A stretch of DNA of 64,000 nucleotides, from assembly GCA_963678705.1 (NCBI GenBank), contig OY783209.1, positions 14,384,001-14,448,000 of the forward strand. Reading direction: 5' to 3'. Origin of the DNA: Panorpa germanica (taxonomy: Eukaryota > Arthropoda > Insecta > Mecoptera > Panorpidae). The notes under the pieces are model-generated. The model saw only the letters and a program-made list of their open reading frames with translations, made no database searches and was not told the DNA's origin. Of this stretch, positions 8,931-23,649 are shown one piece after another. Position numbers and translations under genes: made by a program. Every line of letters starts with the position of its first letter. Position 1 is the stretch's first letter.

Positions 8931-9259
8931 ATATATATAAGTAGTATATAAAAGAGGGGACCTAACGCAAACTCAGATTTGATTGATTTGACACCTAAAA
9001 ATTTACTAAATTGTTATATATAACCAAATATTTTGAAAATATTAAATATTTATAAAAAATTGCAATAATTGTTATATATAACCAAATATTTTAAAAATAT
9101 TAAATATTTTTTAAAAATTACAATAATTAATAACATTTATCAAAATATTGACATATATTTAGACTTCTAGAGATTCTGCATTATAGTGCTCCAAAAGTGA
9201 TAATATATCGTGTTTTACCATATTCACAAAATACTGAATAATTTTTTTTCTATTAAATG
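8931..9259 (+). repeat. Polinton left terminal inverted repeat
   Basis: Matches the reverse complement of 23331-23660 with only a handful of substitutions and small indels (roughly 97 percent by eye). It holds two tandem sub-repeats containing GTTATATATAAC (near 9014 and 9069) and ends exactly at the ATG of the inward-reading gene, so the same upstream sequence serves the first gene at both ends of the element. Confidence 0.92.
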
Positions 9260-9852
9260 GAAAATAGAAAATGCTCTACATGTAAACAAACCTTATCTTT
9301 GGATAATTTTTATTCAAATAAAAGTAAAAAAGATAATCTATGTAATATATGTAAAAATTGTGATTTAAATTATAAAAAACAAACTATCTTTTGTGAATGT
9401 GGTAAAATAATTTCAAAATATTTTCATAAAAAACATTTAAAGACAAATTATCATCGATTAAGACTTAATAAAGCTAGAAAATGTTCTTCTTGTCAAATTG
9501 AAAAACCATATGAAGAATTTAATAAAAATCAAAGTGATACATTAGGATATTCTTATACTTGTAAAGAATGTGTTAAAAATTAATTTAAAAAAAGAGCAAA
9601 AGTATCTTATGTTACTTACTAATCAATTATTTATACACAAATCTGTCTTCACAGTATTACGAAGGAGATTCAATGTATTACGCAAACTCGAACTCACGAA
9701 CAACATACTATCCAGTTTATTAGAATTCGTTCTATTAAGTTTATGTCAACACGATTTTATCATCATTTTACAGATGTTAAATCTTTTTTTCGACTTTGTA
9801 ATACAATGAATTATCTCCTTCAGAACACAAACAAATCAGATTTTTACATATA
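9257..9852 (+). pseudogene. Left-end zinc-ribbon protein of the Polinton
   Basis: The intact part (9257-9583, 108 aa) has a CSTCKQTLSLDNFY motif followed by CNICKNCD, a central CECGKIISKYFHKKHLKTNYH module and then a second CSSCQIEKPYEEF...CKECVKN motif: repeated treble-clef or zinc-ribbon units. The same frame continues past TAA codons at about 9581 and 9629 as a basic region to about 9852, which suggests a longer ancestral protein of nearly 200 residues. It starts at TATTAAATGG at the inner edge of the TIR. Duplicated cysteine modules like this occur in HNH-like or DNA-binding proteins; no catalytic residues are certain and the function is unknown. Confidence 0.6.
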
Positions 9853-10157
9853 AATAATAAGAGAAGAAATCAATATCATAAGATACTTTTGAGAATTAAT
9901 ACGACCAGTCTACCAATGATACTGACTTTGATCTGCACTAATATAAGATGTGCACCTCTTATAAAACGCATACTCAAAACCATAATATCATAGTTATCCC
10001 AACATATGAAAAATTAAAACTTGTATATATAGTCCATAATTACAACGTACAATATTATTGAGAGCTAAGACGTGAATCATCCCATACAAATGAGATTTCG
10101 TTAATTAGTGTCACCATCTATTATTAATTATTATATGCAGAACTCTGAAAGAGAAAT

Positions 10158-10215
10158 AAAAAAAAAGATTTGTCACATGTGGGATTCGAACGCATGCTCT
10201 GCAAAACAGAAACAT
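10158..10215 (-). other. tRNA 3'-half-like sequence with T-run terminator
   Basis: On the minus strand a B-box-like GTTCGAATCCC (10181-10191) is followed by CACATGTGACA and, a few bases later, a run of nine T (10158-10166), as at the end of a pol III gene. I find no matching 5' acceptor stem or A box upstream, so this is at best a tRNA or SINE fragment lying over the 3' end of the metalloproteinase. Confidence 0.3.
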
Positions 10216-11121
10216 ATTCATTAAGTTCAAAACTACTTTGTAGTACGAGTTTCTTTAATAAAATTTTTAACTGTTCTAAAATTGTCATATTTGGACAGGG
10301 TATATCAAACACAGATAAGTCTTTTTTACCTGATCTAATTAATGAATTTGAAAACTCATTATATTCATAAAAATTGTCATTATGAAAAAAATATAATAGT
10401 CCATTTATATATCTAAATACATTAGAAACGTTCAATGGTATCCCCGGAAATAAGTCTGATAAGAGACCATGACGTATTGGAGATAACGAACACTCATTTA
10501 GTTCTATATAAAGGTTATCATAAAAAACATATGTTTGACCAGTATATGAGTTAAAAATACTTGTGATCATTTTATTTTGTGGAATGCCTAATCTTTGTAA
10601 AGGAACTCCATTATAATTATTATTTACTTCAAAACTAAGATAACTCATCAACAATTATTAATATTTCACCTGAAGGTCTTTGATATATATGAGATATTTT
10701 TTCTATATCTTTAGGTAAAATTTTTAAATAATCTGTTATCAGTTCCGGTTCCTGATATATCTTATCATCAATTTTTATTCTCCACACATACTTGTTATAA
10801 AATATATAGAGATTATGATTCACAATTAAAAACGTATCTATATTTTTATATACATTACAAAGAATAGGTTTATTAATTGGATTATTCTCCTTCGGAACAT
10901 TTGGAATGGTTGTTGGAATACTAGTTGGAATAGTAGTTGGAATTATTGAAGTTGTTGGAGGACCATATAACCTCTGAACTGCATAAATATCATCTTGACT
11001 GAGATTATTCTTTCTTCTATAATAAGGAAACATTATTGCTTCTTCATGTGCAGAATGTTCAATACCTAACGTATGTCCAATTTCATGTATTAATACAGAA
11101 TACAAACTAGTTCTTTCAGTA

Positions 11122-11148
11122 TCTCCTTCGGAGCGTTCTGAAAGAATA
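11122..11148. repeat. Palindromic repeat copy inside the metalloproteinase
   Basis: The imperfect palindrome TCTCCTTCGGAGCGTTCTG, followed by AAAGAATA, is read in frame as ILSERSEGDTER just upstream of the zinc-binding helix. Family metalloproteinases have no such serine/glutamate insert here. Related copies occur at 11587-11621 (pro-domain) and 10883-10898 (hinge). Confidence 0.7.
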
Positions 11149-11751
11149 TCATTATGATACAAATCCCAATCTTCCGACCTATCTAAATAAATTTCTAAGC
11201 AACTATTATTTGTATTAGGATACGTTGCATGTGCTAAAACAGTTCCTTCTCCATCAAAATCCCATTTACATAAACCTTTTGTACAACGAGCATTATTTTT
11301 ATGTTTATGTATATCGCTTGCAAACGAAATTAATATATCAGGCTTATAAATATTATTATAAAAAGTAAGACCACTTACTATCGACCAAACATTAAAAGCT
11401 TTTTGAGTAATTTCTTTGTGTATTGATTAAGCTAAAGCAAAATGCCAATACAAAGTTTTTCTAACCCATTTCGTTGTATGAATTCTATATTGTAAAGGAT
11501 TATCTTCATTTTCACATCTTGGTGTTTTAATTAACTTTAATACTCCATCAATAGGTAAAATATAATATTCTTGAAAAAGTATTAAAGAGCCTTCAGAGTC
11601 TTTAGTACTCTCCGGAGCGCTACTATTAGTAGTTGAGAAACCAAAATGATTTAAATATTTTTCAATGTTTTTATCGGAGTCTTCGTTTGTTGAAAATATT
11701 GGTAAAAGAAATAAAAAGTAAAAAATATATATCATTTATACATTAAATAGT

Positions 11752-11773
11752 ATCTCCTTTTTAAGGAGCGCTG
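11752..11773. repeat. Intergenic palindromic repeat copy
   Basis: TCTCCTTTTTAAGGAGCGCTG lies between the major capsid gene and the metalloproteinase gene. It is one of the few copies outside coding sequence. Confidence 0.55.
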
Positions 11774-11776
11774 TTG

Positions 11777-12988
11777 TTAAATAGTCTCCTCAAATTTATT
11801 TAAAACCATATCAAATTTATTTTTAATATGAGATAACAACATAATATAACAACATGTATCATTTTCAACTTTCCTATCAAGATCAACATGTAAAAATATT
11901 GTTTTATTTGAAATTTCTGTATCTGTTGGTTGACAAGTTAAATCAACTAAATAAACAGGTCCAAGTTCTTTATAACTTTTTACATCATAGAACATATTTT
12001 TATCTGTTATAGAAAATATTTTTTTATAAGACTGATATGTCATATATGCAATATTATATTTATCTTTATCAAAATCTAAATTTTGACTTTCTTCTGGATA
12101 TCTATTTATGTTAATAGTGAAATAATAATTTTTAACATATTTATGATTAAACTCACTCATATCTTTCAATTGATTATTAGATTTATTTACTTAAAAAGCG
12201 AATATTCCAAATAACGGTTGTTTGTGGCTTCTGTAATCTGTAGCAATATCAAGTTTTAATGATTTTCCAGACATACTCTCATTCAATATTTTAATACATT
12301 GCCATCTATAATAATTCAAAATATAATTTCCTTCTTCACTTAGAGTTTTTAATTCATCAAGTAACATTGTACAACCAATAGTATCATATTCAAGCAATGG
12401 AGTATATAAATAAATATCAGTAATTATAATTTTACCCTCAGCAACATCATTCGCTCTATAAATTGCATCATTATCATGATTCATTGTAAATATAAATTCA
12501 TCAGCACTACCCCAAATTATATTATCAGTATCACATATTCCTAATCCAAAATCAGATAAAGGTACTAATGCTGTAAAAATACCACCATGTTCAAAATTTG
12601 AAATAAATCCAGTATTTAAATTATTTGTATCAGTTTTTGTTTTTGTAATTACTCCCTTCATTGTACTTGCAACTCCAACATTTTCAATTAGATCAATTTT
12701 GTAATTATGTTTTTTATATTCAATGGTTTTAAATTTATGTGCTACAAAATTATTTATTAATTTAACTACAGTTTCATTACCATAATTTTTTTCATCTGTT
12801 TGTTTATATTCTCCCTCAATATAAATATGAATATTTTTTAAATTTAGAAAACAGTTATTATTATAATCAAGTTTAAAAGATATTGCTGCATTTTCTTTAT
12901 TTATATCTCGTCTATCAAATTTTGGATAAAATTTCTTGTATTCATTACGAATTAAATATTTGTTATATTTATCAAAAACTTCGGCCAT
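11777..12988 (-). pseudogene. Polinton major capsid protein (double jelly-roll)
   Basis: Two ORFs, 12191-12988 and 11777-12169, lie in the same frame and are separated by one TAA at about 12191. Together they make about 404 codons, near the size of adintovirus-type capsid proteins. N-terminal jelly-roll features include IYIEGEYK, VVKLINNFVAHKF, NVGVASTMKGVI and ALVPLSDFGLG. The C-terminal half has FTININRYPEESQNLDF, a tyrosine-rich stretch (YNIAYMTYQSYKK) and GPVYLVDLTCQ, which match the second jelly-roll of Polinton capsids. The stop fits a CAA-to-TAA change. The start has the TAATAAATG context. It follows the protease gene directly, as in many adintovirus-like elements. The product would form the capsid shell. 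Confidence 0.8.
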
Positions 12989-13419
12989 TTATTAGAATAA
13001 AAAAGATTCTCCTTCGGAGAGCTCTGAAGGAGATTATGCTTTTCATCGCTCCGAAGAAGATTCTGCTTTGGAGAGCTCCGAAAGTTCTTTAAGTAAAATA
13101 AACAGAGATGTCCACAAATTGGTGGATCATTATGTTGTTGAATTCGTGAATCATTATAAATTATCTCCGAAGGTTGTGAGAAATACTTTACTAATTCTTT
13201 AGGCGGTTTTGCATTTCCATAAGAATCAAAATAATATATTTTATTATTATTTTTATAATAAGCAGTCCAATGACTTCCAATCTGATATGAATTTTGTAAA
13301 TTTATAATTCCACATTCAATATTATTTGGTTTATCTGGTAACTCGTCTTTCTTAAACACACCTCTAAAACTTTTAATTTTTAATTTTTCAACTAAATTTT
13401 CAATATCTATGTTCGACAA
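12952..13419 (-). CDS. Adenain-like cysteine protease (PRO)
   Basis: Polinton/adenovirus maturation protease (C5-like) of 155 residues. The catalytic histidine sits in QIGSHWTAYY, the acidic residue in YYFDSYG, and the Gln-Cys pair in QQHNDPPICGHLCLFYL. The opening FRGVFKKDELP is the family N-terminal signature. No ATG is present at the start: the frame begins at a TTG (13419) and is open into the upstream pX gene, so the start was mutated or the protein was made by frameshifting from pX. The C-terminal tail after the last conserved block is made of three 27-bp palindromic repeats (RSSPKQNLL, RSDEKHNLL, QSSPKENLF) and overlaps the capsid start by 37 bp. Confidence 0.82.
   Translation of the reverse strand: MSNIDIENLVEKLKIKSFRGVFKKDELPDKPNNIECGIINLQNSYQIGSHWTAYYKNNNKIYYFDSYGNAKPPKELVKYFSQPSEIIYNDSRIQQHNDPPICGHLCLFYLKNFRSSPKQNLLRSDEKHNLLQSSPKENLFYSNKWPKFLINITNI
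12986..12994 (-). promoter_or_regulatory. TAATAAATG start element (major capsid), representative of a set
   Basis: The capsid ATG lies in TAATAAATG. The same or a near-identical string sits on the ATG of pX (13869-13877), the PLA2 protein (15335-15343), the ATPase (16038-16046), the zinc-ribbon integrase (17956-17964), and the ORFs at 18486 and 18940. TATAAATG occurs at the metalloproteinase and TTAAATG at both TIR genes. The penton has the variant AATAATGG and PRO has none. The string resembles the poxvirus late promoter/initiator TAAATG; a transcriptional role is inference. Confidence 0.55.
13005..13087. repeat. Three tandem 27-bp palindromic repeats
   Basis: Units start at 13005, 13032 and 13059 with the theme GATTCTCCTTCGGAGAGCTC, each ending in a GAAGGA or GAAAG-like arm. 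They encode three 9-residue peptides at the protease C-terminus and lie immediately upstream of the major capsid start. Confidence 0.75.
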
Positions 13420-13871
13420 TGGCTGAATCTTTTTTTTTGTAAACCACTTGCTGTCTTCTCCTTAGAAAGGAGTGATAGGCCTCGTCCTGTCTTCTCCATT
13501 GCTAAATCATGTCTTTTTTGTTCTTCAAGTTCTTTATCTTTAGCTGATTTATTTATAACTGAATTAGTAATTGCAGATGCTCCACCAATTAATGATCCTA
13601 AAGCTGCTAATCCTGCAAATACTAATGGAAGAAATCCACCCTAATTATTTCTTTTCAAAGCTCCAAAGGAGATTTTTATTCTACAACCTGTTTTCTCTTT
13701 TATTACCTTCTTAATTCTATTTGATAATCTTTTTGTTAATAATATTTTATTTTCACCACCACTAATTAATTGATCATATTTTAAATGAATAAGAATATCT
13801 TTTTTATCCTTATAGGCTTTATTATTATTACTAGTTTAATGTTTTGTTAAATTTGTTTGGAATGTTTCCAT
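13407..13871 (-). pseudogene. pX/mu-like hydrophobic core or minor virion protein
   Basis: A frame of 154 codons with an intact TAATAAATG start. It contains a basic region with LIHLKYDQLISGG and LLTKRLSNRIKKVIKEK, followed by GGFLPLVFAGLAALGSLIGG, closely resembling the glycine-rich hydrophobic motif of adenovirus pX (mu) and its Polinton counterparts. In-frame stops occur at about 13838 (TAA) and directly before the hydrophobic motif near 13643 (TAG). Both fit changes of glutamine codons. The end of the frame overlaps the start of PRO in the -1 frame at a run of nine A, a possible slippery site. The product likely condenses DNA or perturbs membranes during entry; this is inferred from the family. 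Confidence 0.72.
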
Positions 13872-13900
13872 TTATTACTAAAATAAAGTATCTCTCCTTT

Positions 13901-15337
13901 TTATGCTAATCCAAAACCGATTTTATGTTTTAATTTCATTCCTGTTGTGACAAGCCAAGCATTTGTTTTCTCACCAATGTTACTATCAGAACTCTTAAAC
14001 CTATTCCAAGCTTTCTGTTCTAAAACTTTATCAGCTTCATGTCTCTTTTCTAATTCTTTGTTTTCACTATAAGCAATATCATGTTCTTTACAAGCTTCGT
14101 CTAATTCATTAATTCCTTTATCACCTCTTGCTAATCTATCGTGTAATTTAGTACCGGGACCACAATAATTATATCCAGGAAGATGCATTTCAAATGGTAG
14201 GGTATTTATAATTGTATTTAGTATACCTGATCCTCTTATAATTTTCTTTGGTAATGATAACACTCCTAATTTTTCATTATGAAAATTATTATTACCTGCA
14301 TTTTCTTGCGCATTAATATATTGTAAACGATTTATTAATTGATTCAAATTTGAAATATATTGAACTTCTATTTTATTATCATTGTATTCTTTCCATTGAA
14401 AGCGCTCCGAAGGAGATTCTTTCCATTGAGAGATACCAGAACCTTCTTTCTCTTCTTTAAAATTACTATCATAATATAAATCTCGTTTCATACCTGTTTT
14501 AATATAATCATGTATATATTTTATAATTGTAGTCCATTTAATTGTTGGTGATGAAAGAGGTTTATTAATTTTGTTGTTTAAAGCATTAGAATTTATTATA
14601 ATATCTCTGTAGTCTATATAGTCATCTTTTGTAAATAATTGTGGATCAGGTTTACCACCATAAGTTAATAAATACCATAATCCAACAGTTCCATTATAGG
14701 TTTTTTTACCATCGATAGTAATTCCATCATCTTTATCAAGTTCCATTTTACTATTACCTATTTTTATTTCGTTATTAACAGATTTTGGTCCAAATATTTT
14801 ATCAAACTTGTAATCTTTATCCATACTAAGTTGCAAATATGTTGATGCGTTTGTTCCATATATTTTTATTTTTGAAAAATCAAACTTTCTTGGAGTAACA
14901 GGTTCTGTTAATTCTTTTTTACTCGGTGTAACAGGTTCTGATATAGTAAAATATGGTTGCAATTGTTTAGTTTCTCCTTCAGAACTTTTAATAATATCTT
15001 CATCTATTTTGCCAAGCGCTGATAATAACGGGGCATATTCTTTTTCTTTATTAGTCTTATATTTTAAATTTTGTAATTCAATTTTTTTATATTTCTCATA
15101 TAGTTTATTTCTAATCTCATCTGCTTTTTTAGCTTCTAATAATTTATCTGATTCTGTTTTACAGCGCACTGAAGGTGATTTTGGTTTCCAACGCTCCGAA
15201 GGATATTTAGGATTCTCCAGCGTTTTCTTTTTTTTCTCAGAGATTTGTATAGATCCTTTTTTATATGTTTTAATTAATTTATCTCGCATTTTATCTATTT
15301 TTTTAGCTTCGGAAACGGTTAAGATGTCTCCTTCCAT
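13901..15337 (-). CDS. Phospholipase A2-domain structural protein
   Basis: An intact 478-residue ORF. The C-terminal 100 residues carry a parvovirus-VP1-like PLA2 domain: LPGYNYCGPGTKLHDRL (calcium loop) and DEACKEHDIAY (catalytic His-Asp), then a charged helix. Such domains help virions breach endosomal membranes. The N-terminal 130 residues are Lys/Glu-rich with repeats (AKKxDxxRxKL twice), then a globular region of unknown fold (FDFSKIKIYGTNAS... GTVGLWYLLTYGGKPDPQLF) that resembles proteins seen near PLA2 domains in insect virus-like elements. Several palindromic repeats are read in frame (YPSERWKPKSPSVR; SSEGETK; SPSERF). The start has TAATAAATG. It lies between the ATPase and pX genes, consistent with a minor virion protein. 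Confidence 0.8.
   Translation of the reverse strand: MEGDILTVSEAKKIDKMRDKLIKTYKKGSIQISEKKKKTLENPKYPSERWKPKSPSVRCKTESDKLLEAKKADEIRNKLYEKYKKIELQNLKYKTNKEKEYAPLLSALGKIDEDIIKSSEGETKQLQPYFTISEPVTPSKKELTEPVTPRKFDFSKIKIYGTNASTYLQLSMDKDYKFDKIFGPKSVNNEIKIGNSKMELDKDDGITIDGKKTYNGTVGLWYLLTYGGKPDPQLFTKDDYIDYRDIIINSNALNNKINKPLSSPTIKWTTIIKYIHDYIKTGMKRDLYYDSNFKEEKEGSGISQWKESPSERFQWKEYNDNKIEVQYISNLNQLINRLQYINAQENAGNNNFHNEKLGVLSLPKKIIRGSGILNTIINTLPFEMHLPGYNYCGPGTKLHDRLARGDKGINELDEACKEHDIAYSENKELEKRHEADKVLEQKAWNRFKSSDSNIGEKTNAWLVTTGMKLKHKIGFGLA
14387..14429. repeat. Palindromic repeat flanked by a 13-bp direct repeat
   Basis: A 17-bp core, aagcgctccgaaggaga, is flanked on both sides by TTCTTTCCATTGA (about 14387-14399 and 14417-14429). 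In protein terms QWKE is repeated on either side of SPSERF. The structure looks like a short insertion with a target-site duplication and adds 30 bp, exactly ten codons. Confidence 0.75.
15145..15203. repeat. Two palindromic repeat copies in the PLA2 gene
   Basis: Copies around ACAGCGCACTGAAGGT and AACGCTCCGAAGGAT lie next to each other. The first is flanked by an imperfect 11-bp direct repeat (GATTCTGTTTT / GATTTTGGTTT), again suggesting duplication on insertion. Confidence 0.6.
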
Positions 15338-15366
15338 TTATTAATAAAATAATGCATCGTTCCTGT

Positions 15367-16040
15367 TCAAAGAGCATTAACACTCTTAATATATCCATCA
15401 ACGTCTTTAAACATATAACGTTCATTATTGTTATCTTTTTCACGATTGATACATAAGAAAACATATTTTATTTTTCAACATTTATTGCATAACTCTTTAA
15501 ATTTATTTAAATCCATACCAGCACCGACAATTGTTTTATGAATCTCTGAATACTATATAAATATTGTTTAAACAATATAATTAAATTACAATTATTTCTA
15601 ATCAAATTTTTACTTGTTTCAAGAAAACTTTGACTAAGATAAAAACAAGATAATTTTTTATGTCTTCCACTATAAAAATATTTTTTAAACATATCTTGAT
15701 CTTCTACTAAACAATCATCAAACACAACAACACTATCAGTTATACAATCTTCAACAGGAATAATATTTTCACAATTATTAAAATGCGAATCCACTGTATC
15801 TATCTCACTTAAAATTCTTTCTAATGCTTTATATATTTTTTGATTTAATGTTGTTGTATAAATATATAGACCTTTGAATTCTATAAAAGGTTGTGTAAGA
15901 AAATTAAATAACAACCATGTTTTACCACAATTTGATGGACCACATAATAAACATCTTAATGGTTTTGGAAATATTCTTTCTGAGTTTTTATGTTCTTCAA
16001 ATATATAATCTTTTATTTATGGTCTACGTTGTAGAGTCAT
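15367..16040 (-). pseudogene. FtsK/HerA-type genome-packaging ATPase, inactivated
   Basis: The Walker A motif GPSNCGKT follows LRCLLC, and the Walker B motif VVVFDD lies in the intact part (15507-15914). Downstream FYSGRHKKLSCFYLSQSF and RNNCNLIILFKQ are typical of Polinton/NCLDV packaging ATPases. The ATG at 16040 is in a TAATAAATG context, but codon 8 is TAA. A frameshift near 15520 moves the C-terminus (MDLNKFKELCNKC, then REKDNNNERYMFKDVDGY) into another frame ending at 15367, with one further TGA. The first 17 bp overlap the end of the penton gene. It would drive DNA into the capsid. Confidence 0.82.
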
Positions 16041-16926
16041 TTATTAAACAACAAAAATGTAAGTATGTTATAATTCTACTAAATATTTGACACTTATTTC
16101 CTTCTAAGTCATAAACATTTAAAATAATTTCTTGAAATTTATCAATTCGATCTGATATATCAATATAAATAATTTCATTTGGATTTAAAAACTGTCTTGC
16201 AATATTTGTATCTAATTTAAATACATAAAGTAAATTATCGTCTTTATGTGAATGTGGATGAATATCATGATTTGAATGACTTGATTTTACAATATTACAA
16301 TGTATTTCATATAAATTATTATTAATAACTCTTTTTTCTTTAGGTAATATAAGAGGACCTTCTATAATTTTATTTTGTGGAACAATACCAATTCCAATTA
16401 TATTATTAATTGTTTTTGAAAATATTAATTTAACTGGACTATTAATTTTTACTTTATTTTGATTAACAACATCCATTACAAATAAACCATAATCAAAAAA
16501 ATTTTGAGAACTATGAAAACTTTTTCCTTTTGGTATTTCTCCAGATGGTGTAAAAGTTACATAATTTAAAAAATCACCAGCATTTTTCTCAGAAATATCA
16601 AATACATGTCGATTATTATTAATTTTAAATTTTTCTGATTTTATTATATAAACCATACGAGTTAAATATTGTATAATTTTTGTTTCCAAATCATTAATAG
16701 AATATATACCTGCTTTTACATTACAAATTAATAAATAATGACCATATATAGTTTCCCAAATAATATCTATATTAAATTCAGGATATTCTAATTTTGTAAA
16801 AATATTTATATGAATTAAATCATATTTAATACCAGATACTCCAATTTTATATTTTTTATGTGGATCACGATTAATTGGATTTTCAAATCTCAATTTGTTT
16901 CCAATAATTTTAATAAATTTCCCCAT
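16024..16926 (-). CDS. Penton-like minor capsid protein
   Basis: An intact 300-residue ORF. The C-terminal half reads as a Polinton minor capsid (single jelly-roll) protein: EIHCNIVKSSHSNHD, LLYVFKLDTN, IIYIDISDRID and ILNVYDLEGN near the end (family: DxxG). The N-terminal half has RFENPINRD and an INDLETKIIQYL helix, also usual for the family. It would occupy capsid vertices. Its stop codon overlaps the start of the ATPase gene by 17 bp, indicating a compact transcription unit. The ATG lies in AATAATGG, a variant of the element's start motif. No breaks are visible. Confidence 0.75.
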   Translation of the reverse strand: MGKFIKIIGNKLRFENPINRDPHKKYKIGVSGIKYDLIHINIFTKLEYPEFNIDIIWETIYGHYLLICNVKAGIYSINDLETKIIQYLTRMVYIIKSEKFKINNNRHVFDISEKNAGDFLNYVTFTPSGEIPKGKSFHSSQNFFDYGLFVMDVVNQNKVKINSPVKLIFSKTINNIIGIGIVPQNKIIEGPLILPKEKRVINNNLYEIHCNIVKSSHSNHDIHPHSHKDDNLLYVFKLDTNIARQFLNPNEIIYIDISDRIDKFQEIILNVYDLEGNKCQIFSRIITYLHFCCLINDSTT

Positions 16927-16976
16927 TATTTATTTATAAAAAAAGAAAGCCTTCGCAGTCTTTAGCAAATCTAACA

Positions 16977-17958
16977 TTAATGGAGTTCTTTATTATAAAA
17001 TCCACCAATGACTTCTTCACCATTTAAATCTTTTATTTTATATGTTATTGGATTGGTATATAAAATTTTATGAATTTTAAATATTTCATTTGTCCAATTA
17101 GTTTCATATTTATTTGAAAATGTTGATTTGAATTTTGTTATTCTAACTTTATCACCAATTTTAAATTTTGAGATATTTTCATAAAATCTATCCCTATTGG
17201 GACAGTATACAGTATTCAAAATATATTTTTCATTATCTTTATTCACTTCAAAGGGTTTCATTTTGATAGTTCGATGATAATCTTTATAATTATACTCTTT
17301 TATTAAAGTATCTAATATATTTATCCATTTAAAATTATTATTTGCTGTAAAATAGGGTTTCATCTTACGATTCAAAGTACCATTAAATCTTTCAATAATT
17401 GTAGATTTTTCTTCATTTTCAGTGTGATACATTTTTATATTATATTTATCCAAAAATTTTATAAAATCTTTATTAACAAATTCTAAGCCTTTATCAACAT
17501 GTAATAATTTTGGTTTTCTATTATGTAATAATGATTCAAAAGCTTTAGCAACTGATTTTCCTGTTTTATATTTTAATGGTTTAGACCAAACAAATTTTGA
17601 AAAAGTATCAATAACATTTAATATATATTTAAAACCATTATTATCATCAGCATATTTTCTCATTATAACTAAATCTGCAGCCCATAAATCATCTATTCCA
17701 AGTGTTATAACTTTTCTTCGTCTAAATTTTTTAATAACTGGTTTATGTAATTCAATTGCTTCTTTTAAAAGAACTTCAGAGTTTTTTTTTTGTAGGGCTC
17801 CGAAGGAGATTCTTAATAAATTGACTTTTATTACTATTACAAATTTTACATTTTGCTAATAATCTGTATTTATTATTTTCTGTTTTAATTGTTTTAATAT
17901 CAATATTATCTGTTTTCTTTTTGCATTTTACACAATATACTCGTTCTGAGATATCCAT
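16977..17958 (-). pseudogene. Zinc-ribbon plus retrovirus-like integrase (rve), frameshifted
   Basis: The N-terminal 60 residues (17776-17958) form a zinc ribbon with YCVKCKKK and CKICNSNK, like the DUF5679 family. The integrase core follows in another frame: DDLWAADLV (first Asp), LLHVDKGLEF (second Asp) and STIIERFNGTLNRKM (Glu), with the usual KPYF and YNYKDYHRTI motifs. The C-terminus is a chromodomain/SH3-like region (FKIGDKVRI... GGFYNKELH). The frame change lies in an A-run inside a palindromic repeat near 17780-17800. Catalytic residues are present, so only this shift separates it from an intact gene. It would integrate the element into chromosomal DNA. The start has TAATAAATG. Confidence 0.85.
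17771..17813. repeat. Palindromic repeat at the zinc-ribbon/integrase junction
   Basis: The arms GAACTTCAGAG and GGGCTCCGAAGGAGATTCTT surround a run of ten T. The linker between the zinc ribbon and the integrase core consists of this repeat, and the homopolymer carries the frameshift. Confidence 0.6.
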
Positions 17959-18006
17959 TTATTACAATAAATAAATGCTCCCTGAAAGAGCGCTGCGAAG
18001 CAGATT

Positions 18007-18486
18007 CTATTTTGAAGATGGTATTCCATTTATATTTGCTTTCTTTAAATATTTATCCAATGGAAAAAATTTAAGATTTTCAATAAATTCTGCTTCTTTA
18101 ATATAAACATCGTTTTCATTTATTATATTTGCTTTTATTTGTGTTAACATTTGATTATAAAATTTATAGGCCACTTTAAACTCAGACATTTTTTCCTTAA
18201 TTTGAATTTTTTTATCTAAAATTTCAATTATTACTCCACCTAAACTTAATGCTCCTATCAAGCGCTCTAAAAGAGATGCTGCTAATGGTATTAAAATTAA
18301 ATCTGGTAATCCACTTGGCAGCGCTCCGAAGGAGAATCCAGATGCACTAAATAATACTTTACTTATTGTTAAACCAATATCAATTTTTTGATAATAATTA
18401 TAACTTTTTCTATATACATACATTCGTTTTTCAATATATGTTTTGGAGGAGATAATCTCCTTTGGAGAGCTCTGAAAGAGATTCAT
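18007..18486 (-). CDS. Unknown Polinton protein with central hydrophobic region
   Basis: An intact 159-residue ORF starting at TAATAAATG. After a repeat-derived N-terminus (NLFQSSPKE) comes YYQKIDIGLTISKVLFSA, a Gly/Ala/Leu-rich hydrophobic stretch (residues about 45-90; LPDLILIPLAASLLERL and IGALSLGGVIIEIL) that could be two membrane segments, then a charged helical tail with KMSEFKVAYKFYNQMLTQI. Proteins with a short hydrophobic core followed by a coiled helix occur in other animal Polintons, but I know of no assigned role. At least three palindromic repeat copies fall in or at the edges of this gene (18259-18280, 18317-18341, 18444-18485). Confidence 0.6.
   Translation of the reverse strand: MNLFQSSPKEIISSKTYIEKRMYVYRKSYNYYQKIDIGLTISKVLFSASGFSFGALPSGLPDLILIPLAASLLERLIGALSLGGVIIEILDKKIQIKEKMSEFKVAYKFYNQMLTQIKANIINENDVYIKEAEFIENLKFFPLDKYLKKANINGIPSSK
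18444..18485. repeat. Palindromic repeat at the start of the 159-residue ORF
   Basis: GATAATCTCCTTTGGAGAGC continues into TCTGAAAGAGATTC and encodes the first residues of the ORF starting at 18486. The copy thus extends or replaces the original N-terminus. Confidence 0.6.
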
Positions 18487-18508
18487 TTATTATAAAAAAT
18501 ATTTTCTT

Positions 18509-18940
18509 TTATTGACTAAAAGTAATGTTATGTTTTTCGTATTTATCATTTAAAATAATTTTACTTTTGTATATTAATTTCAATAATTTCAAATCATCTG
18601 GATTATCAATTATTTTATTATATTTTTCTGGTAAACTCAATTTCTTCCTATTTTCAAGAGTTAAAATTATTCTATCTCCATATTTTGATGTTATCATTTT
18701 TGCATTCATAATGAGATAGGGTATATTTAATTCTAACTCTAACAAATTTATGAAATTATTATAAAGATTATTAATGTTATTCAATTTGTTTATTAATTCT
18801 TCTCTGGAGAGCTTTGAAAGAGATTTTATTTTGGAGAGCTTTGAAAGGGATTCTGGTTTACAAAGCTCTGAAAGAGTATCTGCACTGCAGCGTTCCAAAG
18901 CAGTATCTGTATTGGAGAGCTTTGAAAGAGAGACGTTCAT
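18509..18940 (-). CDS. Unknown Polinton protein with repeat-derived N-terminus
   Basis: An intact 143-residue ORF. The first 50 residues are translated palindromic repeats with a nine-residue period (LSKLSNTDT, LSELCKPES, LSKLSKIKS, LSKLSREEL). The remainder is a helix (INKLNNINNLYNNFINLL) followed by MITSKYGDRIILTLENRKKLSLPEKY, a compact conserved-looking module of unknown function. The ATG overlaps the stop of the polymerase gene as ATGA within TAATAAATGA, implying coupled or overlapping expression. DNA binding near the replication genes is possible but is only a guess from position. Confidence 0.55.
   Translation of the reverse strand: MNVSLSKLSNTDTALERCSADTLSELCKPESLSKLSKIKSLSKLSREELINKLNNINNLYNNFINLLELELNIPYLIMNAKMITSKYGDRIILTLENRKKLSLPEKYNKIIDNPDDLKLLKLIYKSKIILNDKYEKHNITFSQ
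18797..18930. repeat. Five tandem 27-bp palindromic repeats
   Basis: Five units of about 27 bp with the theme GGAGAGCTTTGAAAG. They are all in frame and encode the N-terminal third of the ORF starting at 18940. Units differ by several substitutions, so the array is not brand new. Confidence 0.75.
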
Positions 18941-20896
18941 TTATTATAGAAAAATTCATCAATATTTTTATGACCATATGATAGTCTATTAAATTTATCA
19001 ATTAAATATTTTTTATCATCATAAGGACTTAATCCAATTTTTTCTTCTTGAATAGTATATAATTGTAGCTTAAATGATCTTATACTATAACTAGTTTCAA
19101 TTGTTTTTTCTTGTTTAAATAAACAATCTTTATATTTATCAAATGTCATTTTCATAATATTAACTTTTTTAATTCCTTTACATATTTTCTTCTCATGATT
19201 ATCAGTTCTAAACGCATACATTTTTGATCGTAATTCACAATATTCTCTTATTGGAATACCATTATATTCATCTTTAAATAATCCTGGAATTTTTTTATTT
19301 CTTTGAGGTATATTATTAGGATGATCATCTGGATAATCACTTGTATCAAAATATTCAATATTATTTTTTATATCTTCATAAAAATCGTCTGTTTCTACAT
19401 TTATGATAAAGGAATCTGTGTCAGTGCTTAATAGTTTAACTTTATCACCATATTTAGGTTTTAAATAGTTATAATAAAATTTATACATTAATAATTTTGA
19501 AAGTTCAAGTATTTAACATAAACTTTTTTTCCATACATGAGGACAGTATCTTCATTTAATATACTTCTATCTTGATAATGATTTGAATTTATCATTTTTT
19601 GCATTGCTTCTTCAGATTTAATTAATTTTACATTTAATCTATTTCTAACGTTTACCATTTGTTTTCCATATACACTATTATTCATTAATTTAAAGAAATC
19701 TTTTTCAAAATCATTTTTAGCATTTTGTCGTAGTTTAGTATTTTTATCAATATATGGTTTTAACCAAGCTTTTTGTATATATTTAATACCTTTATTAATA
19801 TTAAATAATTTAGCACCTTGTCTTATATATTCTTTTAATATTCTATAATCTATAATATAATTTTTTTTATTGTATAACGTACACATTAATTTTTTATTCT
19901 CTTTTGATGGTTTTGATCCTAATCCAATATCAATCATTTGTTTTTGATATTCTGATAATTCATCATATTTTGGTGAATAGTGTTCTGGAGCTAATGCATA
20001 ATCATCAAATTTATCATGTAATTCTTTTGGAATTCCTAAATTAACATCTAATATATATCCTATGTCCCTCTCATCATCGATACTCATTATATTTTTATTT
20101 TTTTAAAATCTTGAATTTCTTCGTCTGACAACCATTCATGATTAGATATTGGAAGTTTTTGAGACATTGCCCAACCATATAAATTATTAGCATCTAAATA
20201 CATTATATAACTTAAATTTTTTTTGAATTATATATACCCTTTTCTTCAGCTTTTTCTTTTGATAATTTGATAATTTTTTCATACTTTTCATCATAGAAAT
20301 AACAATTATTTGATAAAGCATAATTATTTGATATCATACTAATTCCACCACGAATACCTTTTTCAATAAATTCATACATTTCTTGATCTTGATATAATTC
20401 TAATGTTTGTTTGGTATATTTTAATAAAGCTGAGTTAGCTAGATGTGGAGCACTCATAAAATAAACTGGATCTAATTGATATTCCTTATAACACATATCT
20501 CTAAAATTATTAAATACATCATATAATAATATACTATCTAATCTTAAATATCTATCATGGGATTCACCAAAAGTATCAATATTAAAATGTTTCCAAAAGT
20601 CTTTGGCAAATTTATATTGTTTTTCAGTTATTGTATTACAATTTAAATTGGAATAAAATTCTTTAATATCTGGTAAATTTAATGCAACGAACTTTTTATA
20701 ATCATCAACCCATTCATATAGATAAACTCCTTTTTGTAATAAGAAAGCTTTTCCTTCTAATGAATAATTTTTATATCTTTCATTAAAATATTTAAAAGAA
20801 CTATAATCACATATTTTTTCAATTTTAGTACAATATTCACAATCATCATATGCTATTATATTGCTTTTTGAAGCATTTGGGGTCTCTGGTGTCTCT

Positions 20897-20924
20897 GGAG
20901 CCTTCGGAGCTCTGCAAAGCAGTA
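20897..20924. repeat. Palindromic repeat copy in the polymerase gene
   Basis: GGAGCCTTCGGAGCTCTGC, followed by AAAGCAGT, is read as LLCRAPKAPE immediately after a zinc-ribbon-like YCYKCKKQRELKNP motif. Confidence 0.55.
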
Positions 20925-21130
20925 TAGGGTTTTTTAATTCTCGTTGTTTCTTACATTTATAACAATATCCAGAGTTAATATTTAATAAATTTTTAATTGC
21001 TTTATCTAATGAAACACCCATAAATGCTAATGTATCAATAAATCTTATTTCCATAAAACTTTGTATTATTGTTCCTTTTGGTGTTATTCTAAGTTTTTCC
21101 CATTTATATGTGCAATTATCATTTTTACAT

Positions 21131-21250
21131 TCTATAGGAGATTCTCCTTCAAAGAGCTCTGTAAGAGATTTTCCTTCAAAGAGTTTTATAAAAGATTTTC
21201 CTTCGGAGAGATCTATAAGAGATTCTGTTTCTAATTCGCAGAGTTGCTTA
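21131..21250. repeat. Four tandem 27-bp palindromic repeats in the polymerase gene
   Basis: Units with the theme GATTTTCCTTCGGAGAGATC encode ESLIDLSEG, KSFIKLFEG, KSLTELFEG and ESPIE. They are in frame, inside the exonuclease part of the polymerase and between CxxC motifs. Confidence 0.75.
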
Positions 21251-23330
21251 GCAGTTTTATAGATATTTTGACATTTTAAACATTTTATTTTATTTTCTCC
21301 ACACACTTCAAGTTTTGTTATACCTTCACATTTATTACATTTTTCAAAAAGGTTTTCACCTTTTCTTGATATTTTACAATTTGAGCAATATATTGAATCT
21401 TGTTTTGTTTCATATTCATTTACCAAAACTCGTTTTGATAAATATTTATAATTTTCAGTTGTATCAGCAAGTATTTTAATATTTTCAGCTTCTTTGCTCA
21501 ATTTTAAAATCCATTCAATAAATATTTTTGAATTATATTTTATATTATGTATTCCAATGGGTACAAAATTGGGTAATTTTAAATTTAAATTACAAGATTT
21601 ATGTGCGGCACCTCTAAATTTACCAGTTATGTGATCATGATCCCAAACTTAATTAGAAGGAAGACCTTCAAAATCTTTACCACAAATATGACAATTTGTT
21701 TGTGATTCAAATAATTTTATATCTTCTTCATTCCATTTCATAGGTTCATTTATTTTCTTTATTTTGTAATAATTTTTTGCCAAATCTGTTAAATCGTTAT
21801 TAAATGTTTTCATTATTATATTAGAGTCTTTTTCTCTTCTCAAAATAGTTTTTTCATTTGTAGTAAAACAATAACTATTTGGAATGTGTTTGGAAATAAT
21901 TTTTTTATTATTTATTTTATCTGAGGGAAAATCTTTAGATAATGTACATTCAAAATCTAATGTTGTAAAATAAGGGTGATATATTTCTGCTTTATTAGAT
22001 TTATAAAATAATTTGTATGTTTTTTCAGCAGGCATAATTATATTGCTAGTTGAGATTCCACAAATTTTTGTATGAGTATTATATTGTATAACAGTTTTAA
22101 ATCTCTTACTACATTTATTACAAATATAAAAACGAATATTACAATGATGAATTTTACCTTTTATTAAACTACTTAAATTTTTTATACCAACAAAATGATA
22201 AGTTAAATCACCATCATCATTAATCAATTCACTAAGGACTAATAAATTAACATGTGTTTTATCATAAGAAATATTCTTACTTCTATAGCCTAATATTATT
22301 TGTTCTTCTTCTTCTCTTCCCATTTTTATTAATTCATATAAATTAATTCAAATATTTAAAAATTGTTCATATTTTTCAATAATGTCTTGAGATAAAGCAA
22401 GGGGATATTCCATTTCTAATTCCTCATATCTTGTTATATTATATTTTGATGGTCTACAATTATCCCTATCTACTGAATTTAGTATACTTTCTAAAGCATA
22501 TTCAAAACATCTATTATCTTCCATTTCCTTACACTTAAATTGTCTAGTTCTAATATTTTTTACATTTATACAACATTTTTTATTTTTAATATATTGTGGT
22601 AAATCAATATATGATCCACCTTTTATTGGTTGAAATTTATCTCTATATAAAACAGAATATTTTACTTTTTAAATCTATATTTAGAGTTCTTTTCAGTCCA
22701 TTCATCAAATTTATTGTCAATTATATCTTCAATAACTTTAATTAATTTATGAATATCTTTTACATAACTTGAAATTTCTATAATGTCAGTACTAAATTTA
22801 TTTGTATGTGTATTTACTTCTTCTCCATCTTGATTTAATTCTACATACTCAATAAAAGTAGAAAGTTTAAACTTTATATATTTATATTTTTCAATTTGAA
22901 ATTTTATATAATTCGTTAATGGTTTTCTGATTTCTTCAAAATGTATATTAATATCTTCATTATTTTTTTAAATAAAATATTTATCACTTATTATTCCATT
23001 AAACGCTCTATTTGGTTTTAATTCTAATTCTTTAATCAATCTCTTTCTTTCTAAATTCTTTTCAAAATCTGTTGGTTTGGGAAATATATCTTCATCATCA
23101 TCTTTGATACTTCAAAATGGGGGTAAATATGGTTTTTCTATTGTAAATGAGATATCAACATTTTGAAATGGTGGTATATATTCTTCTTTTGTATTAATAA
23201 TATTATATCTCATTATTGGATTGATTAGTTGTGCTTTTCTTAACTGAGATACTCCTCGAATTTTATTATCTCTGCAATATTGTTTTAATTGAAGCATAGT
23301 TTGAGTTTGAAATTGGTTTCTTATATAATC

Positions 23331-23649
23331 CATTTAATAGAAAAAAAATTATTCAGTATTTTGTGAATATGGTAAAACACGATATATTATCATTTTTGGA
23401 GCACTATAATGCAGAATCTCTAGAAGTCTAAATATATGTCAATATTTTGATAAATGTTATTAATTATTGTAATTTTTTAAAAATATTTAATATTTTTAAA
23501 CTATTTGGTTATATATAACAATTATTGCAATTTTTTATAAATATCTAATATTTTCAAAATATTTGGTTATATATAACAATTTATTAAATTTTTAGGTGTC
23601 AAATCAATCAAATCTGAGTTTGCGTTAGGTTCCCTTTTTTTATATAATA

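Follow-up and report, generated by a model that had tools for sequence, protein, structure and literature searches.

The yeast gene VAR1 carries a GC cluster in frame. Such mitochondrial clusters (GC42 and kin) are described as G+C-rich, 42 bp long and associated with a putative target duplication of 2 bp (AG), their stems being more constrained than their loops (PMC4478555). The Rickettsia palindromic elements (RPE) are bacterial, measure 105-146 bp and are found fused in frame in protein genes, with a target site duplication entered as '?' in the source (PMC2229807). As far as the descriptions go, the mechanism of in-gene selfish hairpins in bacteria and organelles has stayed open (PMC4478555, PMC2800124, PMC2229807). 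Here we report on a family of 24-bp units scattered over a Polinton (Maverick) transposon of the mecopteran Panorpa germanica, and conclude that they are very probably a mobile selfish element. The window analysed is a stretch of 64,000 nucleotides (assembly GCA_963678705.1, contig OY783209.1, positions 14,384,001 to 14,448,000), and coordinates below are those of the window. Dozens of near-identical nuclear copies of this Polinton, together with related families free of units, provide filled and empty alleles side by side in a single genome, so that direct counts can be made of insertion length, target triplet and orientation as well as of frame selection and the upkeep of stems.

Scanning the whole window for the motif TCTCCTTCRGAGMGCTCYGAAGGAGA (at least 17/26) gave 30 sites, 28 between 9175 and 23415 and 2 elsewhere, compared with 1 to 6 sites in six first-order simulated windows. 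The 24-mer core (at least 16/24) was found at 28 sites inside the Polinton versus 2 start positions across 49 kb outside, and the stricter cut-off of at least 18/26 left one site in the 49,230 bp of window outside the Polinton. The initial annotation had seen a dispersed motif family across the Polinton and restricted to it, and both views are borne out, here and in the genome-wide counts below. Strong or clear units lie at 11123, 13009-13086 (three), 13648, 14392, 15154-15204 (two), 17785, 17980, 18252, 18311, 18457, 18799-18930 (five), 20899 and 21144-21254 (four), and weak or half units at 9644, 9815, 10887, 11597 and 14974. Most of the places named by the annotation therefore hold, with weak or half motifs in the 9657/9815 area and at 10883, 11587 and 14970; the exceptions are 16945-16966 and 11752-11773, which score below 14/24 in the core scan, though the stretch 11743-11776 around the latter is polymorphic for presence among copies.

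The repeating unit is a 24-bp double mini-hairpin (stem-TTC-stem, stem-GAA-stem) plus a doubled triplet, rather than one palindrome. A 4-bp stem with a TTC loop is followed by a 2-nt spacer and a 4-bp stem with a GAA loop, which with one triplet of the direct repeat makes 27 bp. Steps of 27 bp predominate; 30-bp and other variants (25 and 34 bp) occur as well, which corrects the length of 27 or 30 bp given initially. Covariation among the 139 distinct 24-mers reached z 11.8 for within-half pairs and z -3.4 for cross-half pairs, the latter serving as a control because they have the same relatedness. Pairs 3-9, 4-8, 16-22 and 17-21 within halves covary clearly (z 5.0, 4.1, 7.4 and 8.0), the remaining four giving z 0.3 to 2.8 and the cross-palindrome pairs z 0.7 to -3.9. 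After thinning to 44 representatives at least 6/24 apart, z was 5.0 within and -2.5 across halves, with a mean of 37 both-sided changes. Two independent stem-loops with compensatory change, the hallmark of double hairpin elements, are thus present, and a single full-length palindrome as the conserved unit, the form first proposed, was rejected since cross-half pairs do not covary.

Upon folding with DNA parameters, the forced double hairpin did at least as well as the full hairpin in 95 of the 139 units. Mean energies were positive for both (2.1 and 4.0 kcal/mol for the forced double hairpin and the full hairpin), and many units would therefore fold unstably under this model; the perfect palindrome itself favours the full hairpin over the double one. 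The paired stem changes may reflect selection for mobility or correction by template switching. Adjacent units with swapped halves in copies L019, L024 and L025, near position 13425, suggest recombination inside units.

The genome, searched as one assembly of 464 Mb, is rich in Polintons of at least four families, with many integrase frames open. Half-units (up to 3 mismatches) matched 193 + 174 times against 0 + 2 for the reversed control; the 24-mer, counted on both strands because it is near-palindromic, matched 146 + 146 times against 0 + 0. Integrase matches (150 scored of 2104 first-look candidates) were sorted by identity into family A, that of the window (85-100%), B (63-68%), C (about 51%) and D (about 46%). 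A and B are related sister families; both have units, some of them at the same places in B. Among the 136 distinct strong sites listed, 129 have an A or B integrase no more than 13 kb away (114 A, 15 B). The other 7 are spread over three places with no integrase in the list; 3 of them lie in three 501-bp stretches taken there, which align with family A at 84 to 99.8% identity. No strong site among those listed was traced to non-Polinton DNA in the genome pattern searches, meaning that an equal frequency outside Polintons, the outcome that would have spoken against the first description, was not seen among these sites. At least one listed site accompanies at least 46 of 52 A integrases and at least 12 of 21 B integrases; for the 75 C/D integrases, one has such a site at up to 13 kb, and a neighbouring A copy is closer to it. 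In 10-kb pieces scanned at 18/26 or better, units numbered 13-21 in 17 close A copies (window included), 4-15 in four more divergent A copies and 3-4 in three B copies, and none was found in two C and two D copies. Repeats of families C and D were tandem or A+T-rich only, among the repeat families shown; family D Polintons have an array of 11-bp TTACGTTCAAA/TTACGTTCCCA-like repeats (L034 2502-2690, L035 2493-2699).

All 136 listed sites are on contigs other than the COX1-bearing C249, that is, away from a mitochondrial location. The COX1 fragment comes nearest to named Diptera, at 92-93%, which points to an insect as the probable host. Viral contigs had no match to the 24-mer and no relative of the protein with a PLA2 domain; matches to a 16-mer, one in each of 13 viral contigs, were read as chance. 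The GTDB genome collection (84,980 species) had 0 exact matches to the 24-mer.

Alleles were compared in an alignment of 17 of the 21 A copies, L018, L022, L026 and L028 being excluded as divergent. In blocks of 500 columns, the identity of the aligned copies to the column majority is mostly 94-100% (divergent stretches occur in L021, L024 and L027), and their length differences cluster at units. Filled alleles have gained 24 bp together with one triplet. With up to 2 substitutions allowed on each side, the flanks of filled and empty alleles agree at 14460 (TAT), 15154 (ATT), about 20060 (ATA), 16020 (AAT) and 18249 (ATG), and a sixth site, 11120 (TAT), has one near-matching empty copy, L028. 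A short duplication with an empty allele, as known for yeast GC clusters, is therefore seen here as a 3-bp repeat at six sites. More generally, flanking triplets are identical in 64 of 165 distinct units, where 30.1 are expected from composition, and reverse-complementary in 3, where 9.3 are expected. The window hinted at a bias for forward units; this was dropped after a tally by site cluster (6 forward, 5 reverse and 8 symmetric, the reverse ones at 12264 and 14923 being possibly chance). The tempo was gauged on the 78 pairs formed by 13 close copies, the four less close rows of the 17 being set aside: the median distance by substitution is 1.1%, yet unit number differs at a median of 5 of 19 site clusters (range 0 to 8). 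Six of the 19 clusters have a unit in 17/17 copies. Units with like flanks also occur in B, and the process therefore predates the A/B split, or units were exchanged later.

Units in open reading frames (ORFs) occupy all three frames, one of them by a single unit only. A site was classed as coding when a minus-strand stretch of at least 100 amino acids (aa) was open over it; this held for 15 to 17 of the 17 copies at each coding site used, and for 0/17 (17989) and 0/9 (11743) at the two intergenic sites. Length differences of 9 bp or more from the commonest allele are multiples of 3 in 31 of 34 instances at 14 coding sites, and in 1 of 6 at the two intergenic sites (Fisher one-sided, 0.0005). 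Kept out of this tally are the T-run sites 13425, 17788 and 20059, rows in which 13004, 13017 or 14460 holds a divergent replacement and, at 13456, a pair of rows with lengths of 40 and 4 and an edge within a T-run; with these two rows scored as misses, the coding figure becomes 31/36 (0.0016). For the intergenic unit at 17980..18006, no allele-length difference of at least 9 bp is divisible by 3. Selection on frame is therefore visible, and a gain of 24 + 3 passes it.

At the protein level, ORF 18007-18486 compared with three B copies has two 9-residue gaps, at units 18252 and 18311, and the PLA2-domain protein compared with the B copy L031 has an 18-residue gap at the unit pair 15154-15204. 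The segment at 14392 (peptide SPSERF) is a full gap in 12 of the 13 public homologues aligned and is replaced by five other residues in one. The idea that proteins gain peptides from the repeats with frames kept is supported by these comparisons, the relatives not having the peptides as conserved segments. For virus-like transposons, this is a route to the acquisition of 9-residue peptides. Openness in six frames fails as a general property of the unit: the perfect palindrome is open in all six with 58 of 64 triplets, yet in two common variants a TGA closes one frame of the plus strand, all three coding-strand frames staying open, and 57 of the 139 distinct 24-mers have a stop in some coding-strand frame.

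Mobility is read from what is observed: differences in presence and number among close family A copies, both orientations, paired stem changes and, at coding sites, length differences that nearly always keep the frame. The explanation we lean towards is that the units are frame-neutral selfish hairpin micro-elements spread by template switching via short triplet identity; granted mobility, we find template switching somewhat more plausible than an enzyme acting on unit ends. During replication or recombination of Polinton DNA, a growing strand, paused by hairpins, would exit at a triplet such as TAT or ATT, copy a unit located at another place in its own or a different Polinton molecule, and re-enter at the same triplet, which would be doubled for this reason. 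Stems would stay matched through template switching within the hairpin, arrays would lengthen or shorten by slippage or unequal exchange, mostly in 27-bp steps, and inserted units would ride along with the Polinton. Insertions outside conserved domains would be tolerated, because a unit adds 9 codons and the commonest variants are open in the three coding-strand frames. The flanking triplets bear on this scheme. Units with equal triplets have ATT 26 times, TTT 4 times and TAT 0 times when AG-centred, and TAT 10, ATT 6, AAT 3, ATA 2 and ATG 1 times when CG-centred; tallied by cluster majority, cores are CG/TG in 7/7 TAT/ATA entries and AG/CT in 5/7 ATT/AAT entries (Fisher one-sided, 0.010). One unit was seen with TAT in forward orientation and with ATA when inverted. 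Association and inversion together fit the copying of a unit with its triplet into a place already having that triplet. In the literature, template switching can create hairpin stems and may help maintain them (PMC8794818).

Several points weigh against template switching. The evidence for maintenance of short stems is termed circumstantial in the same source (PMC8794818). The triplet/core tally consists of 14 non-independent entries, with the 18811-18919 cluster in both rows and 13003-13075 mixed, and 9 CG-centred units carry ATT or AAT. Some steps depart from 24 + 3 (30 bp at 14386 and 16192, 25 bp at 18550), and the intergenic 34-bp insertion with a longer repeat at 11743 is a misfit. Neither an intermediate nor an enzyme was observed, and the data come from one assembly. 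Precise loss between direct triplets could be the source of some empty alleles. Taken as the general explanation, with ancestral units deleted between their flanking triplets, loss appears very improbable. An exact 27-bp deletion would mimic an empty site, and footprint-like partial alleles exist at 16020, 14412 and 15162; yet the 18249 unit, present in 1 of 17 A copies, is missing from all three B copies compared, several units are carried by a minority of copies, and both orientations occur at unrelated places. We give equally little credence to functional signals in cis (protein-binding sites, packaging or RNA-processing signals) kept by selection on the Polinton, in spite of the paired stem changes and of the six site clusters filled in all copies. 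Unit number and place differ among near-identical copies, the four C/D copies scanned have no such units, and Rfam gave no match to the repeat unit at the gathering threshold. Packaging or recombination signals at fixed places, one of the roles suggested at the outset, are therefore not upheld, though some sites are constant. Ordinary protein-level repeats, i.e. low-complexity linkers growing by slippage under selection on the peptide, can hardly be the answer: the 27- and 30-bp tandem arrays, several of them close to ORF ends, would suit them, but the use of all three reading frames, the existence of intergenic units (17980) and pairing maintained at the DNA level do not.

The main rival to template switching is an enzyme that duplicates 3 bp. 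Supplied in trans by the Polinton, for example as a 108-aa Cys/His protein, or by a host transposase, it would insert the double hairpin at A+T-rich triplets with a 3-bp target site duplication. We hold this to be possible, if doubtful. Recurrent gains of 24 + 3 bp with various triplets (TAT, ATT, ATA, AAT, ATG) argue for it, and so does the distribution of the 108-aa protein: of its 72 genome matches, 65 have an A or B integrase no further than 15 kb away, 7 are near no listed integrase and 0 are near the 75 listed C/D integrases. Relatives were thus found only close to or inside A and B elements, or else at a distance from every listed integrase. The matches comprise 50 at 84-100% identity (47 without stops), 21 at 34-38% and one fragment; in the first group, 44 + 2 lie at up to 15 kb from an A or B integrase, and 19 of the rest are near B. 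Since A and B are sister families, the gene common to both counts as one association, not two. On the other side, the 15 distinct window ORFs scanned with Pfam contain no transposase or nuclease domain above cut-off, bar the Polinton's own rve integrase, and no RAYT-type transposase domain. For the 108-aa protein, Pfam hits are all sub-threshold, no catalytic motif is visible, and a search of 5.8 billion proteins returned no homologue at E <= 0.01 among 5 candidates. The tendency of triplets to follow core type also goes against an enzyme. Any role given to the 108-aa protein is a guess. It seems unlikely that this orphan protein (9257-9583) recognises the double mini-hairpin and causes it to insert, duplicating 3 bp in the process; if it did, we would have a eukaryotic viral counterpart of REPIN/RAYT and, to our knowledge, 24 bp would be the smallest such mobilised element. 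Two B-integrase elements (C9:6.91 Mb, C3:15.6 Mb) have both A-type and B-type 108-aa matches, and their ends may therefore have been exchanged.

The host Polinton spans 14.7 kb, with terminal inverted repeats (TIRs) at 8950-9269 and 23321-23640 (320 bp each, 97% complementary). Its ORFs match in Pfam a double jelly-roll (DJR) capsid domain, an adenovirus-type protease, a PLA2-like domain, an rve integrase and matrixin, so that TIRs, rve integrase, DJR capsid and adenovirus-type protease, the hallmarks of Polintons, are all present. The matrixin-type metalloprotease domain lies at 10635-11162 (E 3.7e-17). Fragments at 18937-22323 resemble PolB by eye, and one matches C/D copies; Pfam returned no polymerase match. 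Both TIRs contain a weak motif-like stretch (9176-9199, 17/24; 23391-23414, 16/24), possibly a chance match or a unit ancestor. Units and other features are collected in Table 1.

Table 1. Units, empty sites and host features in the window (TIR, terminal inverted repeat; ORF, open reading frame; bracketed 24, the 24-bp core).
Feature	Position	Strand	Remarks
Polinton (Maverick), family A, host of the repeats	8950..23640	.	TIRs, Pfam domains; family-A integrases (52 among the matches listed)
108-aa protein, three Cys/His modules	9257..9583	+	adjoins left TIR; candidate helper
Unit TAT[24]TAT	11120..11149	+	8/8 within-half pairs; near-matching empty allele in L028 only
Three-unit array, ATT-flanked, third unit ending CTT	13006..13089	+	0 to 4 units across 17 copies
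Unit, partly degenerate	13648..13674	+	similar unit with like flanks in three B copies
Unit in PLA2-domain ORF	14392..14418	+	30-bp tandem variant in some copies; peptide missing in 13/13 public homologues aligned
Empty site in window	14460..14461	.	TAT[CTCCTTCGGAGCGCTCTGAAAGAG]TAT present in 12/17 aligned copies
Two ATT-flanked units	15151..15207	+	L031 (B copy) has an 18-aa gap; empty alleles occur among the other A copies
Unit adjoining poly-T run, upstream of integrase ORF	17785..17811	+	1 or 2 units per copy
Intergenic unit	17980..18006	+	none of the 17 copies is open for 100 aa here on the minus strand
Unit ATG[24]ATG	18249..18278	+	window copy only (1/17); 9-aa gap in three B copies
Unit AAT[24]AAT	18308..18337	+	17/17 A copies; 9-aa gap in three B copies
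Unit at start of ORF 18007-18486	18454..18483	+	17/17 A copies; 8/8 within-half pairs
Five-unit array, N-terminal part of ORF 18509-18940	18796..18933	+	3 to 6 units per copy
Empty site in window	20060..20062	.	[TTGCTTTGCAACGCTCCGAAGGAG]ATA in 4/17 copies, two with left ATA too
ORF housing units 20899-20925 and 21141-21257	20212-21501		read as DNA polymerase fragment, without Pfam support
Reverse-oriented unit in ORF 20212-21501	20899..20925	-	motif scans
Four-unit array in ORF 20212-21501	21141..21257	+	4 units in 17/17 copies

A literature search of titles and abstract openings returned no earlier report of such elements in Polintons. Several described systems share part of their features. 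Pithovirus M1/M2 repeats are likewise palindromic repeats invading a eukaryotic DNA virus, in (M1-M2)n patterns, but they are described as about 140 bp long and intergenic, with a putative TA duplication (PMC10664404). REPINs have in common with our units a doublet of short palindromic repeats as the mobile unit, both-sided hairpin changes and clusters, and differ in being bacterial, extragenic and, by proposal, moved by RAYT (PMC3116915). As for non-autonomous class II elements (miniature inverted-repeat transposable elements, MITEs), a 3-bp repeat is seen at the units, an autonomous partner having been sought among Polintons only. The double hairpin elements of Allomyces and the hairpin-forming elements of sponge mitochondrial DNA also show side-by-side hairpins, tandem copies and complementary substitutions, whereas they are organellar and lie mostly between genes, though some repeats fall within protein or rRNA genes (PMC2800124); no 27-bp frame-neutral unit was seen in the part of that description covered. 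Yeast GC clusters resemble the units as short palindromic elements with a short putative duplication, presence/absence polymorphism and merger or shuffling of units (PMC4478555), and differ in being mitochondrial, while the units described here belong to nuclear Polintons and lie mostly in genes with the frame kept. Finally, the likeness to Rickettsia and Wolbachia palindromic elements noted in the initial annotation, as selfish micro-repeats, stands: the units are dispersed, mostly in frame, restricted to Polintons and variable in presence and number, and like those elements they are palindromic selfish repeats in frame within protein genes. Here, however, a unit is 24 bp plus 3, outside the roughly 100-150 bp of the bacterial elements, with two hairpins and in a eukaryotic virus-like transposon, by which description they are set apart. 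We conclude that the units work like RPE, as in-frame selfish palindromes, and like yeast GC clusters, with a short duplicated target and shuffling, and that they are a member of neither, because size and genome differ.

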